Shown: positions 11,543-26,898 of the stretch, in pieces | How the letters are laid out: each line of letters opens with the position of its first letter | How positions within the stretch are numbered: position 1 is the first letter of the stretch | Source: a virus | Length of the DNA stretch: 46,147 nucleotides | Strand: one strand, 5' to 3' | IMG/VR virus record: IMGVR_UViG_3300008262_000290 | Coordinates: 1 to 46,147 of that record | Notes under the pieces: model-generated | Databases searched by the model: none | What the model was told of the DNA's origin: nothing | What the model saw: only the letters and a program-made list of their open reading frames with translations | Position numbers and translations under genes: made by a program

Positions 11543-14500
11543 ATGGCAGAAAACATCTGGGTACAAGGACAAGAGTCATATTTTAATGAAGACGCTAAGT
11601 TCTTCAAAGACGTATACATTTACGGAAAACTTTATTATGACTTTGAAGGTCTTGGAGATGATTTAACTCTTGATAATCTTACTGTTAATAACCAAGCAAA
11701 TATAAATGACCTATATGTAGCAGGTCTCTCTACTTTCATAGGAGCATCTCAATTTAATAGCGTAGTTTCTTTTGGAAACACTGCTACTTTCCAAACCGAT
11801 GTTAACATTCTAGGAACACTAGATGTAGATAATATTGATGTTGGAATTGCTACAGTCAGACAACGTTTTGAACTTACTAGTGATGGCGGAACTAATTACT
11901 TAGTTGGTTTTGCTACTGGATCCCGCGCTGGTAATATTGGTATTGGAAGCACGTTACCTGAACAACTACTTGATATTGGTAACTCTATTCGTATTGTTAG
12001 GAATATCTTTGACTCTGCTAACTTTCCTGGTGATAATGGATACTTCCTATCCCGCGATGCTAATGGTATTCGTTGGATTTCTGCACCACCAAATGCTAAG
12101 ACTGATGGATTCTTCGCACGAAATGAAGGTATAAACGTCGGTGTTGGTTCATTTACAACTATTAACTTCATTGGTAATGGTAGTGGTGGAGACGTTGTTA
12201 ATGCTACAGTAAATACTTCAGACTCCAATGTCCTTGATGTTAATATCATAGACCATTGGATAAGAAATGGTGCTGGTATTCACACAACAGTTAATGTTGG
12301 TGTTAATGTAATTTCCCCACAAACACAGCTTGATGTTAACGGAATTGCTTGGTTCAGGGATGAACTGAGAGTATCTGGGGTATCAACATTTACTCAGTTG
12401 GTTAGAATAGATGCTCCACTGAGAGTACATAATAATCTTATTGTAGGTACAGCAACAACAGCAATATACGCAAATAACTCTGGTATTGCTACATATGCAG
12501 ATAGGGCAGGTTTCTCTACAGTAGCAGGAATCTCAACGTTTGCTATCCAGTCTGGTTTCTCTACAGTATCAGGCATTGCTACATACGCTATTCAGTCTGG
12601 CTTCTCTACAGTATCAGGCATCTCTACTTTTGCTATTCAAGCAGGATTTGCTACCGTATCTGGTATATCGACTTTTGCTATTCAAGCAGGTTTCGCAACA
12701 GTAGCAGGAATCTCAACGTTTGCTATTCAGGCAGGATTTGCTACTGTATCTGGTATATCGACTTTTGCTATTCAGTCTGGTTTCTCTACAGTATCAGGTA
12801 TTGCTACCTTTGCTATCCAGTCTGGATTTGCTACAGTAGCAGGTTTCGCAACAAATGCCGCTAGAGCAGGCATTTCTACATTCATTCAAACTACTGAGAC
12901 TCTCACAAACCAAGACTTCTTCATTCCATTTGTTGAAAACTCAACTAGTCAAACAAGTGAGACTGTAAGAGTTGATAGTGGTATTACATATAACCCATCA
13001 ACCAATGCTTTGGGTATTGATGGATCTTTACAGGTTGGATCTGCTGCTACAGTTATTGCTACTAATGCATCTGGTGATATTGGTTTCAACAGCACAACTC
13101 CAACAAGAGCAGTTGACTTCCAAAAAGATGTTCGCTTCCAGCAGGCATTATATGATCTAAATGATAATGTTGGATTTAGAACTGAAAAGTATCAGGTTCC
13201 AAGAAATGTCCTAACAACTGTTGGAGTTGATACGACAGGAAACATTATTGGTGGAAGATTCTATGATGCCGCAAACCTAATACGACTAAACTTAGACTAC
13301 ATTGCTAATGAATCTATTGGTTTCTTAACAAGTACAGACTATAAGAGTCCAGCATTTGCCCTATCTTCGGCAGACTACACTTCCTGTAAGGATGATATTA
13401 AGGATATTCTGAAAGCTATTACCTATGATATCACAAGAGGTGGTAACTCCCGTTGTGTTGGTGCTGGTCAGTCTTATTATAATGGAGCAACTCTACAGCA
13501 CATCACTGGAACTGATATAAACGGTTACAGTATCAAGGAAGCAACTATTGTTGCTATCACGACTGCTGCTCAAGTAGCAAGATATGTTATCAATAACTTA
13601 CCAGCACCAAGATCTTATCAGGGTGTAGGCAATAGTGTTTCTCTCATTCGTGATCTAACATTACAAGACGACCCTGCTGTTGGTTTCAACACTGATCCAG
13701 GCGGTTGTTCTAATGTTGTTTCTGCTATTACTGTTTGTGCAGGTATTGTTACTAATATTATTCAACTTGGTGCATCTGCATTCACCACTATTGGTTTTAC
13801 CACAACAGCACCAAATGGTAAGATTGTTTGGGCTCCTGCAGGTGCTGACTCTAGAAACATTATCTGGGTTTCTAAGTATGGTAACGATGATAATGATGGT
13901 AGAACAGAAGGTTCAGCAAAACTAACTATCGGTTCCGCCGCTGAAGCAGCACAACCTGGCGATACTATTATGGTTCGCTCTGGTGTTTATGCTGAGAACA
14001 ATCCTATTGGTTTAAGAACTGATGTTTCGGTTATTGGTCAAGACTTAAGACTGGTTACTATTTACCCACAAAACAATGATGATGTCTTTTATGTTAGAAG
14101 AGGATGTTTGATTGATAGTTTGAGTTTTGCTTACAGTAAAGATCCTTATGATGATTCTGCACCATTGTCTATTACTGGTGCTGCTGTTGCTTTCCCACCA
14201 CCAGCTGGTATTGGTAGTGCTAGATCTGGTTTCTTGGATCCTGGTCCTTGCAATGAAGGTCCAAGTGGAAGATGGAGATCTCCATATGTTCGTAACTGTA
14301 CGAACTTTATGAGTAACAGTATTGGTATGAAGATAGACGGAGACCATGTTGCTGCTGCCTTTACCGGAACTAATAATCTTGGGCAAGACCTCAAGTGTAT
14401 GGTTTGTGACTCATTTACTCAATATAACCAAAATGGTATTGGCGTTTCTATCACTAACAAAGCATATGCTCAGTTAGTTTCTATTTTTACTATCAACTCT

Positions 14501-22583: not shown

Positions 22584-23531
22584 ATGGCGCTAGATTTTCC
22601 ATCCAGCCCTAGTTTAAACGATTATTATGTCGCCAATGGGCGTAGGTGGCAATGGAATGGGACTGCCTGGCAACGAATACCAGACCCTGGAGCACAAGGT
22701 GTTCAAGGTTCCACAGGTACTACTGGTGCTCAAGGTGCTCAAGGTGCCACTGGATCTGGTGCTCAAGGAACCGCTGGTGCTCAAGGAACCGCTGGTGCTC
22801 AAGGATCTACAGGTGCTCAAGGTGCCACTGGATCTGGTGCTCAAGGATCTACAGGTGCTCAAGGTGCTACTGGTGCTCAAGGAACTCAAGGTAGTATAGG
22901 TTCAACAGGTGCTCAAGGTTCTACTGGAGCAACTGGAGCACAGGGTGCAACAGGTTCTACTGGAGCACAAGGAAGTACAGGAGCAACAGGTGCACAGGGT
23001 GCAACAGGTTCTACAGGTGCTCAAGGTGCTCAAGGTTCCACAGGTGCTACTGGTGCTCAAGGAGCACAAGGATCTACAGGTGCTCAAGGTTCCACAGGTG
23101 CTACTGGTGCTCAAGGAGCACAAGGATCTACAGGTGCTCAAGGTTCCACAGGTGCTACTGGTGCTCAAGGTGCTCAAGGTTCCACAGGTGCTACTGGCGC
23201 ACAGGGTGCACAAGGTGTTGCTGGACCATCAACAATTCCTCAAAATTCCCAAACAACAGGATACACTTTGGTATCTGGTGATGTTGGAAAGCATATATCA
23301 ATAACTACTGGTGGAGTTACTGTTCCAAACTCAGTGTTTAATGTTGGAGATGCGGTGTCTATATATAATAATTCTGGTAGTAATCAAACAATTACTCAAG
23401 GAGCATCTACTACTTTACGTTCAGCAGGAACGGCAAATACAGGAAACAGAACATTAGCACAATATGGAGTATGTACAATTTTGTGTGTAGGGTCTAATAC
23501 ATTTGTAATATTTGGAGCAGGATTAACATAA
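22584..23531 (+). CDS. collagen-like fibre stalk protein (module 3)
   Basis: A 315-residue protein with the same short head as module 2 ([27 protein letters not shown]). Its collagen-like region covers residues 36-216, about 59 triplets with two breaks where GATGS runs straight into GAQ. The shared C-terminal beta cap runs from [18 protein letters not shown] to FVIFGAGLT. The breaks may mark kinks in the stalk. The tip gene follows after one base. Stalk length differs between the three modules (86, 40 and 59 triplets), so tips would sit at different distances from the baseplate. Confidence 0.85.
22689..23231 (+). repeat. collagen-like repeat with two interruptions
   Basis: A 543-base tract encoding GAQ, GST, GAT and GTA triplets. 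Two GS-GAQ interruptions break the 3-residue period without shifting the reading frame. Blocks of about 30-50 bases recur (for example GGAGCACAAGGATCTACAGG), so it is recombination-prone. Confidence 0.95.
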
Positions 23532-23532
23532 T

Positions 23533-24384
23533 ATGTCTATTATTCAATCATTTTTTATGGGATCATCTTCATCACCATTGAGTGTTGAAGTTCTTATGAT
23601 GGGTGGTGGTGGTGGAGCATCATCTCTTCTAGCAATTAATCCTATTGCTAGAGATGACGATGTTTATTGGCCAAATTACTATGGAGGCGGCGGGGGTGGT
23701 GCTGGGGGATTATATATTTACTCGGCAACATTAAATCCTGGAAGCAGTTCTACAGTCACAATTGGTGGAGGTGGAAGTGGTTCTGCCGATGGATCTCCAA
23801 CTTCATTTACTGGTGCTTCTAATGCTGTTGGTGGTGGATATGGAGCAGCAAGTGATACTGGTGTAGCCTGGACAGGCCGACCTGGTGGATCTGGAAGTGG
23901 TGGTAGCAGTGGTGGCGCCGGCGGATCCGGAACTTCTGGTCAAGGAAATTCTGGTGGATCATCCACTAGTAACGCGCAATGGGGAGCAGGAGGTGGTGGA
24001 GGAAAAGGTGGTGCTGGTAGTCCAGGACCATATCCTGTCGGTGGTGCTGGAGGACCTGGTTATGATTTAGCAACTTTTAGAGGAGGGACTTCACTAACAG
24101 TTGCTTTTGGAGGGGGTGGTGCCGGATGGAGTAGTGTCGGAAATAATGGTGATGGAACCACGACTCAATCACCTGCTTCTAATACAGGGGGTGGTGCTAG
24201 AAATGCTATCGGAAATTACTTGGGCCCTGCAGGTACTTTCTCTGGTGGATCAGGAAGAGTCATCGTTCGCTATGCTGGATCTACACAAAGAGCAACAGGA
24301 GGAACTGTAACAACAGCGACTGTTGGTGGATCTCCTTATACTATTCACGATTTCACCGCAAATGGTACATTCTCTGTAACTTAA
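23533..24384 (+). CDS. glycine-rich fibre tip (module 3)
   Basis: A 283-residue protein rich in poly-glycine blocks: VEVLMMGGGGGASSLL, YGGGGGGAGGLYIYSA, NPGSSSTVTIGGGGSG, GGSGSGGSSGGAGGSG. It ends in a distinct domain (GGSGRVIVRYAGSTQRA then YTIHDFTANGTFSV) found at the end of many glycine-rich phage tail proteins. It has no cysteines, unlike the tips at 18002 and 34448. The poly-glycine blocks likely pack as a polyglycine-II sandwich carrying variable loops (YWPNYY, TGRPGG, SPGPYPVG) that contact the receptor. Placement right after a collagen stalk supports a tip role. Confidence 0.7.
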   Translation: MSIIQSFFMGSSSSPLSVEVLMMGGGGGASSLLAINPIARDDDVYWPNYYGGGGGGAGGLYIYSATLNPGSSSTVTIGGGGSGSADGSPTSFTGASNAVGGGYGAASDTGVAWTGRPGGSGSGGSSGGAGGSGTSGQGNSGGSSTSNAQWGAGGGGGKGGAGSPGPYPVGGAGGPGYDLATFRGGTSLTVAFGGGGAGWSSVGNNGDGTTTQSPASNTGGGARNAIGNYLGPAGTFSGGSGRVIVRYAGSTQRATGGTVTTATVGGSPYTIHDFTANGTFSVT

Positions 24385-24397
24385 TATAGTAATAATT

Positions 24398-25513
24398 ATG
24401 GCACATTTCGCAGAACTAGATGAAAATAATATAGTACTTCAAGTAACAGTAGTCAATAACTCTGATATTTTGGATGAAAATGGAAATGAGTCAGAAGAGA
24501 TTGGAATTCAATTCAATAAAAACTTATTAGGACAAGATACAAAGTGGGTTCAAACTTCTTATAATTCAAATTTTAGATATAAGTATGCTGGGATAGGTGA
24601 CTTCTATGATGAAGTTCATCAAGTTTTTATTCCACCAGGATATCATTATGATGAAGAATATAATCGAGTTGTTTTAGATGGTTCTTTATATAATGAAGAA
24701 TTTGATGAATTTATTTTACCTCAACCACATCCTTTATGGTGGTATGATCCAGAAAGAAAAAAATGGAGACCACCATTTCCAAAACCAATGACTACTCATC
24801 AATATGAATGGGATGAATCTATTTCAGATTGGAAACAAGTTGAAGGTTCTTTAAAATGTCTATTAATAATGGAAAGAAAGATAAGTATATTTAAAGATCC
24901 ATTTCCTCATCTGACCATAGAAAATTTTTATACTGATGAAGAATTAGAATTGATTTGGGAAGAACTTATTTTTCTAACTAAACCAGGAAAATTGTACGAT
25001 CCTGGATACATTCATGGAGCAGTTCATCCAGAAACAGGAGAGATTTTAACTAAATCTAGGTCTATACAATTAGATATCTCTTATAATGATAAAAATCTTT
25101 CCAATATTATAACGGTAACTCAAAAGTTATTCAATCATGGGTTTTTGAATATCTTTTATGATAGGTTTCCACAACATAAAAAAATTCTAAACACTAATTA
25201 TTGCTACACAAAAGTTAGATATTATCATGATGGAGACTATTATGCTCCCCATACTGATATAAATCATGACTTTTTAGCGTTCAGTTATTTCAATAGAGAA
25301 CCTAGAAAGTTTACGGGTGGTGAATTATTTTTTCCAGAGTATGGTGATTATGAATTTAAATGTATGAACAATAGTTTAATTCTGTTACCATCATATGTTA
25401 CTCATGGAGTTAAGTGGGTAAGTATAGAAGATACAGATTATTATTCTGGAAATGGTAGATATTGTATATCTCATTTCTTTGGTATTGATTATCAAAAAGC
25501 ACATGAAAATTAA
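24398..25513 (+). CDS. structural-domain / 2OG-Fe(II) oxygenase fusion
   Basis: A 371-residue two-part protein. Residues 1-150 match a domain common in cyanophage virion proteins (AHFAELDENNIVLQVTVVNN, WVQTSYNSNFRYKYAGIGDF, QYEWDESISDW). Residues ~155-365 form a prolyl-4-hydroxylase-like oxygenase: DPFPHLTIENFYTDEELELI, YYAPHTDINHDF (H285 and D287), FTGGELFF, then LPSYVTHGVKWV (H336) and GRYCISHFFG (R354). The HxD...H triad and the 2-oxoglutarate-binding arginine are present, so it should be active. The virion-type domain suggests the enzyme acts on, or is carried with, the fibres. It follows the glycine-rich tip and overlaps the sulfotransferase-like gene. Confidence 0.78.
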   Translation: MAHFAELDENNIVLQVTVVNNSDILDENGNESEEIGIQFNKNLLGQDTKWVQTSYNSNFRYKYAGIGDFYDEVHQVFIPPGYHYDEEYNRVVLDGSLYNEEFDEFILPQPHPLWWYDPERKKWRPPFPKPMTTHQYEWDESISDWKQVEGSLKCLLIMERKISIFKDPFPHLTIENFYTDEELELIWEELIFLTKPGKLYDPGYIHGAVHPETGEILTKSRSIQLDISYNDKNLSNIITVTQKLFNHGFLNIFYDRFPQHKKILNTNYCYTKVRYYHDGDYYAPHTDINHDFLAFSYFNREPRKFTGGELFFPEYGDYEFKCMNNSLILLPSYVTHGVKWVSIEDTDYYSGNGRYCISHFFGIDYQKAHEN

Positions 25514-26213
25514 TCAAATTTACCACACATCTCACTGTGGTTCTACTTTAATGGCAACATTATTGGCGAATTCTACAACTGTTTATTGCGAACCATCATG
25601 GTCTTCTAGGTTATTAAATGGTGAGTTGGAACTTGATGATGCCACTATTAAATTTGGAAGTGGATGGTGTCCGTTTTCACATCAACTACCGGGTAAAAAA
25701 GTTTTCTTGTATAGGAAATTAAAACATCATCTGTTTAAAATAAAATCATCAAACTATATTAATCGTATTGTATCTACAAAGTATGAACATCATCTAAAAC
25801 ATTGTCACCCATCTTTAAAGGAATATCAGTTTACAACTGATCTTGAGAAAATTACTTTTATGTGGTTGAATAATGTTCAATGGATAAGTGATATTGGTGA
25901 TGTCTTATGGGTAGAATCAAATAGTTTTTTTGAGAATAAAAAAGAAACTATGGATAAAGTATGTGATCACTTTAATTTAGATAGAGTAAAAAACTATGAA
26001 CTATCTAATGTTTATGTGAAGTCTTTTGGTCTGATAGGGAAAGAAAAATCAATTAATGAAACTGAGATACCAAATTTAGGTACAGTAAAATCTTTATACC
26101 CTTCTTTTGGTATCATTGATGATGACTTATGTGATCTATGTCCTGAAATTAATGATTTAGTTTCATGGATTAAAAAAGAAATACCCAGTATGCAAATTGA
26201 TTTTCTAAATTAA
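25503..26213 (+). CDS. sulfotransferase-like protein
   Basis: A 236-residue protein from ATG 25503, which overlaps the oxygenase stop by 11 bases; the longer frame upstream is unlikely. The N-terminus HTSHCGSTLMATLLANS then VYCEPSW matches the 5'-phosphosulfate-binding loop of sulfotransferases (usually PRSGTTLL..LL..HP....EP). A helical FMWLNNVQWISDIGDVLWVE segment and a C-terminal helix fit the fold. Seen: the loop motif. Inferred: transfer of sulfate to a sugar, or to a residue hydroxylated by the upstream oxygenase. The classical proline-arginine of the loop is replaced by SHC, so substrate or activity may differ. Confidence 0.6.
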   Translation: MKINQIYHTSHCGSTLMATLLANSTTVYCEPSWSSRLLNGELELDDATIKFGSGWCPFSHQLPGKKVFLYRKLKHHLFKIKSSNYINRIVSTKYEHHLKHCHPSLKEYQFTTDLEKITFMWLNNVQWISDIGDVLWVESNSFFENKKETMDKVCDHFNLDRVKNYELSNVYVKSFGLIGKEKSINETEIPNLGTVKSLYPSFGIIDDDLCDLCPEINDLVSWIKKEIPSMQIDFLN

Positions 26214-26226
26214 AAAATTACTAGAC

Positions 26227-26255
26227 TTGACAATCCCCAAATAATCCTTTATAAT
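26227..26255 (+). promoter_or_regulatory. perfect sigma-70 promoter P1
   Basis: TTGACA, a 17-base spacer and TATAAT: an exact consensus host-type promoter, the expected early type in T4-like phages. A 7-bp inverted repeat (GACTTGA at 26224-26230, TCAAGTC at 26258-26264) brackets the whole element. Transcription would start near 26262 and meet the terminator at 26333-26362. Confidence 0.88.
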
Positions 26256-26261
26256 AATCAA

Positions 26262-26362
26262 GTCTTTCAAATCCTTGTATCTTTGGGAATGAAGACCCTC
26301 TCTGTGGTGGGAGAGATGAGTTGGTGGTTACTAGAGAGGGTCTTAGCACCCTCTCTTTTTTT
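26262..26362 (+). ncRNA. candidate ~100-nt RNA / attenuated leader
   Basis: Bounded by a perfect sigma-70 promoter and an intrinsic terminator with no convincing gene between them, this would give an RNA of about 100 nt. It contains three complementary segments: A (26294-26303, GACCCTCTCT), B (26333-26342, AGAGAGGGTC) and C (26348-26356, ACCCTCTCT). A:B and B:C pairing are mutually exclusive, and B:C is the terminator. This is either a small RNA or a leader that switches between antitermination and termination. A frame starting at 26289 crosses the terminator but lacks a ribosome site. Confidence 0.5.
26333..26362 (+). terminator. intrinsic terminator
   Basis: A 9-bp stem AGAGAGGGT / ACCCTCTCT with a 6-base loop, followed by seven T residues. 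It ends the late fibre transcript and the short P1 transcript, just before early promoter P2. Confidence 0.9.
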
Positions 26363-26373
26363 GCCTAGACCCC

Positions 26374-26402
26374 TTGACACCAGGACCCAGACCCCCTATA
26401 AT
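26374..26402 (+). promoter_or_regulatory. perfect sigma-70 promoter P2
   Basis: TTGACA, a 17-base spacer and TATAAT, 25 bases before the ATG at 26428. Direct repeats AGACCCC lie at 26368-26374 and 26390-26396, overlapping the -35 and the end of the spacer, possible repressor contacts. It should drive the two small genes and probably the tRNA cluster. Confidence 0.9.
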
Positions 26403-26810: not shown

Positions 26811-26898
26811 GGAAGTGAGACTTGGTAGTCAGAGGAGTCTTATAAACTCTTTCCGCCAGATTAGCGGCTTTGAGGTGGTTCGAATCCACCCACTTCTA
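26811..26898 (+). tRNA. type II tRNA, anticodon loop reads TAT (identity uncertain)
   Basis: An 88-nt element with acceptor GGAAGTG/CACTTCT, a T-arm with loop TTCGAAT (GGTGG/CCACC), an anticodon stem GGAGT/ACTCT with loop CTTATAA (anticodon TAT), and a long variable arm CCGC/GCGG. A long variable arm belongs to Leu, Ser or Tyr tRNAs, but TAT would read the Ile codon AUA. The D-arm is short (GACT/AGTC around TGGT), so it may be degenerate. No CCA is encoded. Confidence 0.6.

Follow-up and report, generated by a model that had tools for sequence, protein, structure and literature searches.

Gene organization at the end of the fibre operon

In the window, that is, the whole 46,147-nt stretch of record IMGVR_UViG_3300008262_000290, the gene at nt 22584-23531 (+) encoded a collagen-like (GXY) fibre protein of 315 aa (Pfam Collagen, E 7.4e-27), and its downstream neighbour at nt 23533-24384 (+) encoded a glycine-rich tip-like protein of 283 aa (Pfam Gly_rich_2, E 6.7e-13; phrog_2295). 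These genes were followed by a frame of 371 aa, open at nt 24398-25513 (+), in which residues 1-81 were similar to phrog_7759 (E 8.8e-35) and the C-terminus comprised a 2OG-Fe(II) domain (phrog_61, E 3.8e-16 over residues 155-340). The last gene of the series, nt 25503-26213 (+), encoded a predicted sulfotransferase-fold (ST) protein of 236 aa. Both this gene and the frame at nt 24398-25513 were accepted as real reading frames. Their overlap, noted in the preliminary description of this DNA, was also observed, except that its size is probably about 11 bases and not 62, with the alignments favouring nt 25503 as the start of the ST gene.

A terminator-like hairpin with a T-run was located 3′ of the ST gene at nt 26333-26356 (+), which fits the earlier proposal that the pair ends the fibre operon. 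This hairpin was flanked by two perfect TTGACA-17-TATAAT promoter-like sites within nt 26227-26402, a region in which no Rfam family was matched and from which a transcript of about 100 nt may be produced. Further downstream, nt 26811-26898 were predicted by ARAGORN to be a tRNA, Ile(tat), while Rfam gave only tRNA-Sec, under the gathering score.

The phrog_7759 gene, the oxygenase gene and the deletion between them

The 371-aa frame had been described as a virion domain fused to an oxygenase, an architecture that did not hold as a natural one when related contigs were compared. DNA alignment and junction mapping revealed that L011 and L012, from other samples, had the sequence of the window apart from 62 additional bases, which carried the stop of the first gene; L005 and L006 likewise had the window sequence with 62 more bases including this stop. 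In the intact contig L011, the first protein (phrog_7759) was 168 aa in length, with a C-terminal end of EGSEGERSWVLDLIDNQSNT followed by the stop, and in the intact contigs the oxygenase started with MERKI, corresponding to nt 24869 of the window. As judged from the phrog_7759 profile and the alignment to L011, the first gene of the window spans nt 24398-24850 (+) and appears truncated by a deletion, the junction of which (nt 24850-24851) lacks 62 bp relative to L011 and L012, comprising the end of this gene and intergenic DNA, and creates the apparent fusion. Two separate genes were present in the other related loci as well, the sole exception being L015, which had a different deletion through which its frame remained open and in phase.

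Four other contigs of the phage in the window (L002, L003, L004 and L008) each possessed a different deletion, of 153, 173, 177 or 211 bp, in the equivalent of window nt 24580-25000, and three of the four shared the left breakpoint of the window. It is highly improbable that the apparent fusion represents a genuine fusion protein of this phage population: the window does have an uninterrupted, in-phase frame, as does L015 by way of another deletion, but otherwise identical contigs hold the intact two-gene form, and each of the five contigs, window included, has its own deletion within a single stretch, several of these deletions shifting the frame or extending into the oxygenase. Because the deletions varied within a single stretch and some were out of frame or removed oxygenase residues, assembly error was regarded as the likelier cause, and the deletion in the window is most likely an assembly artefact, judged from the contigs and not from reads. 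These alignments show that separate genes encode the phrog_7759 protein and the oxygenase, with the fusion in the window resulting from a deletion.

Assignment of the phrog_7759 protein as a virion domain was not confirmed either; PHROG gives this family no function, it is annotated as hypothetical in isolates, and a search for a relative of the protein in the PDB found none.

The oxygenase, 214 aa starting with MERKI, is encoded by nt 24869-25513 (+). Residues H285, D287, H336 and R354 (numbered as in the fusion) were found at the positions previously given, forming the HxD...H iron triad plus the downstream Arg, and this HxD...H...R motif was invariant across 13 aligned sequences. Similarity of the window protein to Pfam 2OG-FeII_Oxy_3 (E 7.6e-5, 24 bits) fell under the cut-off of 27, which was exceeded by the oxygenase of the relative L109 (29.5 bits). 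The dN/dS values of the oxygenase in freshwater pairs were 0.04-0.14 and those of ST were 0.18-0.39, that is, well under 1 for both, indicating that the two genes are under purifying selection.

The ST family and its linkage to oxygenase and APS-kinase-like genes

Sequence and profile searches with the window ST gave no family match in Pfam, NCBIfam, PHROG or PDB, and 50,697 phage records yielded nothing for the five family members tried. The set was widened by pattern scans of viral contigs. Among the 48 members aligned, Pfam Sulfotransfer_1 was matched by nine (best E 6.4e-7), not including the window ST, and Sulfotransfer_3 by eight. No bacterial relative was detected in two scans of genome contigs, in which the use of short peptide patterns makes the absence a weak one; the family is divergent and has so far been met only in viral contigs.

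An earlier AlphaFold2 run on 8 sequences was poor (pLDDT 43), whereas the model obtained with the 48-member alignment had a pLDDT of 95.1 and a pTM of 0.92. With this model, a Foldseek search against the PDB returned 29 matches at E <= 1e-3, all sulfotransferases, and VIA-align gave Z scores of 13.5 to CurM ST and 12.3 to TPST1; small-molecule and glycan sulfotransferases were both among the structural neighbours. The second gene, described earlier as sulfotransferase-like, can accordingly keep this name, though its own sequence has no family match, and its product matches a PAPS-dependent sulfotransferase fold as predicted by modelling. Residues C12-G13-S14-T15, L21, E30, P31, F68 and W121 were invariant in the alignment. 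In the putative PAPS loop, located by motif analogy and not by superposition, CGST was invariant and the usual Lys/Arg position varied. E30 could be the catalytic base, going by motif spacing to TPST; the roles proposed for E30 and the CGST loop are thus by analogy of motifs.

With the ST genes clustered at 90% identity, clusters that are not independent of one another, 49 of 52 had a 2OG gene within about 900 bp, in agreement with the earlier view of the oxygenase and the sulfotransferase-fold gene as a pair, and 21 of the 52 had an APS-kinase-like gene in the scanned neighbourhood. Because the loci had been fetched largely via ST itself and 2OG genes were called by similarity to nine seeds plus the motif, the evidence for linkage is taken from the contrast between ST and other genes and not from the raw rate: at the gene level, 46 of 50 ST genes adjoined a 2OG gene, versus 78 of 398 (20%) other genes of the same loci. 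The genes usually ran in the order 2OG, ST and, in loci that had one, APS kinase, and the ends of neighbouring genes often overlapped. L075 had ST without 2OG, L118 was cut by the contig end, and in L126 another gene lay between ST and 2OG; an oxygenase without ST was found in L025, L028, L030 and L031. Distances among ST proteins correlated with those among the 2OG proteins (Mantel r 0.74, with 0 of 2000 permutations as high), a correlation owed in part to the common ancestry of the phages.

Two APS-kinase-like proteins were scanned against Pfam. APS_kinase was the top match of one (39.6 bits, E 6.7e-10; cut-off 21.1), the best PDB matches of which were also APS kinases, and the third best of the other (27.0 bits, E 5.2e-6), for which generic AAA scored slightly better; resemblance to the two scanned proteins was the sole basis for assigning the remaining genes of this kind. 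No APS kinase was found in the record of the window or in nine related records, which are mostly fragments. Many uncultured phages from water carry an ST gene beside an oxygenase gene, sometimes together with a putative gene for synthesis of the sulfate donor.

Some of the islands contained additional genes. Cytidylyltransferase-like genes were present in L108 and L140, and carbamoyltransferase-like genes in L108 and, by eye only, in L126. L024 possessed a second sulfotransferase-like gene at nt 13406-14224 (GLPRSGNTLLSSIL; phrog_27463), which belongs to another family and has downstream of it an apparent 2OG gene, recognized by eye.

That the second gene encodes a sulfotransferase fold lacking sulfotransferase activity, for instance a P-loop transferase of another kind or a protein with a binding role, is considered improbable. 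The divergent PAPS loop, with CGST and no conserved Lys/Arg, and the lack of a significant family match for the window's own ST would agree with such a protein, but some members do match Sulfotransfer_1, the best structural matches are sulfotransferases, and the APS-kinase-like gene is linked in two-fifths of the clusters.

Genomic contexts, candidate substrates and comparison with known systems

Genomic contexts were obtained by reading gene lists, not as a per-cluster count by a fixed rule. The tip, phrog_7759, 2OG and ST genes occurred together in all 11 listed freshwater loci, which are not all independent, some being of the same phage. A collagen HMM match was present in 10 of the 11; the exception, L018, extends some 5 kb beyond the tip match on the upstream side, and the collagen gene there is absent, divergent or missed. 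In other clusters, tail-fibre-like genes preceded the pair and endolysin genes came after it, and in podovirus-like contigs the pair lay beside head-tail adaptor and scaffolding genes. In marine contigs, the pair was situated in a replication block, flanked by genes for a late-promoter regulator (phrog_254) and a helicase loader (phrog_269) and away from any fibre gene. UvsY was considered for the 93-aa gene of these contigs and rejected, as PHROG points to the late-promoter regulator. The association with fibre genes suggested by the preliminary description stands for the position at the fibre end in the clade of the window. An obligatory link is refuted, since the pair travels without fibre genes in the marine contigs, the very result that the description had named as refuting; the fibre link is common but not required.

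We propose a phage tailoring module consisting of separate genes, usually adjacent or overlapping, in which the 2OG-Fe(II) oxygenase would hydroxylate a substrate and the divergent ST would then sulfate the new hydroxyl group with PAPS as donor. In other phages the APS-kinase-like gene would plausibly raise the PAPS supply, and in the phage of the window PAPS may be supplied by the host. Such a hydroxylate-then-sulfate module, with the fusion in the window being a deletion and likely an artefact, is judged reasonably probable. The most economical reading is that a single substrate is first hydroxylated and then sulfated. The linkage and order of the genes, their purifying selection, the active-site residues of the oxygenase and the predicted ST fold are what the analysis shows, and catalytic activity, PAPS use and a common substrate acted upon in that order are inferred.

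Collagen-type hydroxylation of the stalk, already viewed as unlikely in the preliminary description, was also judged unlikely here and rejected for reasons of composition, the 315 residues of the last stalk protein including 7 Pro and 1 Lys. Fibre proteins are nevertheless candidates in the clade of the window. Modification by the module, without the fusion, of a fibre or tip protein belonging to the phage itself, so as to alter adsorption, would account for the constant position of the pair after the tip and phrog_7759 genes in that clade and for its occurrence near tail-fibre-like genes, upstream of endolysin genes, in many other clusters; this is rather doubtful, however, given the marine pairs in the replication block, the podovirus-like contigs with head-tail adaptor and scaffolding neighbours, and a stalk nearly free of Pro and Lys. 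The more specific idea that the ST family, with 2OG oxygenases and sometimes its own APS kinase, installs hydroxyl-sulfate groups on virion tail fibres is unlikely, and we know of no phage adhesin with a hydroxyl-sulfate post-translational modification. Somewhat better placed, though still tentative, is the modification of a host surface glycan, a lipid or a small metabolite during infection, such as would block superinfection or adjust sulfur metabolism. The persistence of the pair in phages that lack a neighbouring fibre gene, the small-molecule and glycan sulfotransferases among the structural neighbours, and the cytidylyltransferase- and carbamoyltransferase-like genes of some islands are consistent with such a target, whereas the frequent position at the fibre end would be left unexplained by it unless this is merely a cargo site. 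For the marine contexts, a host glycan or a small molecule is at least as suitable a target as a fibre protein.

The proposed module gives an unannotated gene family of uncultured aquatic phages a testable chemistry and raises the possibility that phages use sulfation as a strategy. With the comparison of contigs, a misleading fusion can be struck from the record.

Sulfotransferase genes have been reported in OM43 phages, which are aquatic like those carrying ST; they were assigned to Sulfotransfer_3 with a function stated as unclear (PMC10580990). Those proteins fall into PF13469, whereas most members of the family described here escape annotation. In the literature searched, most subscription papers being outside its scope, we found no account of ST genes being linked with 2OG and APS kinase genes.

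The window oxygenase has the HxD...H...R motif in common with prolyl 4-hydroxylase-like 2OG-Fe(II) oxygenases, and prolyl 4-hydroxylases were the best PDB matches of its profile, although weak ones (2jig, E 0.006); unlike the case in those enzymes, the stalk protein adjoining it is nearly devoid of proline. With the PAPS-dependent sulfotransferases (Sulfotransfer_1/3; CurM ST, TPST, SULT), ST shares the predicted fold over most of its length (VIA-align Z 11-13.5 over about 170-195 aligned residues, with rmsd 3-4 A and about 8-16% identity), the conserved E30-P31 and the P-loop-like CGST motif, but it differs from them in its divergent PAPS loop and in having no bacterial relative in the scans made. 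RaxST of Xanthomonas and NodH/NodPQ of Sinorhizobium are bacterial sulfotransferase systems in which donor supply is encoded by dedicated genes. To our knowledge, neither has a 2OG oxygenase partner, and their likeness to the ST module is one of description, not of sequence, namely a sulfotransferase accompanied by dedicated genes for supplying its donor.
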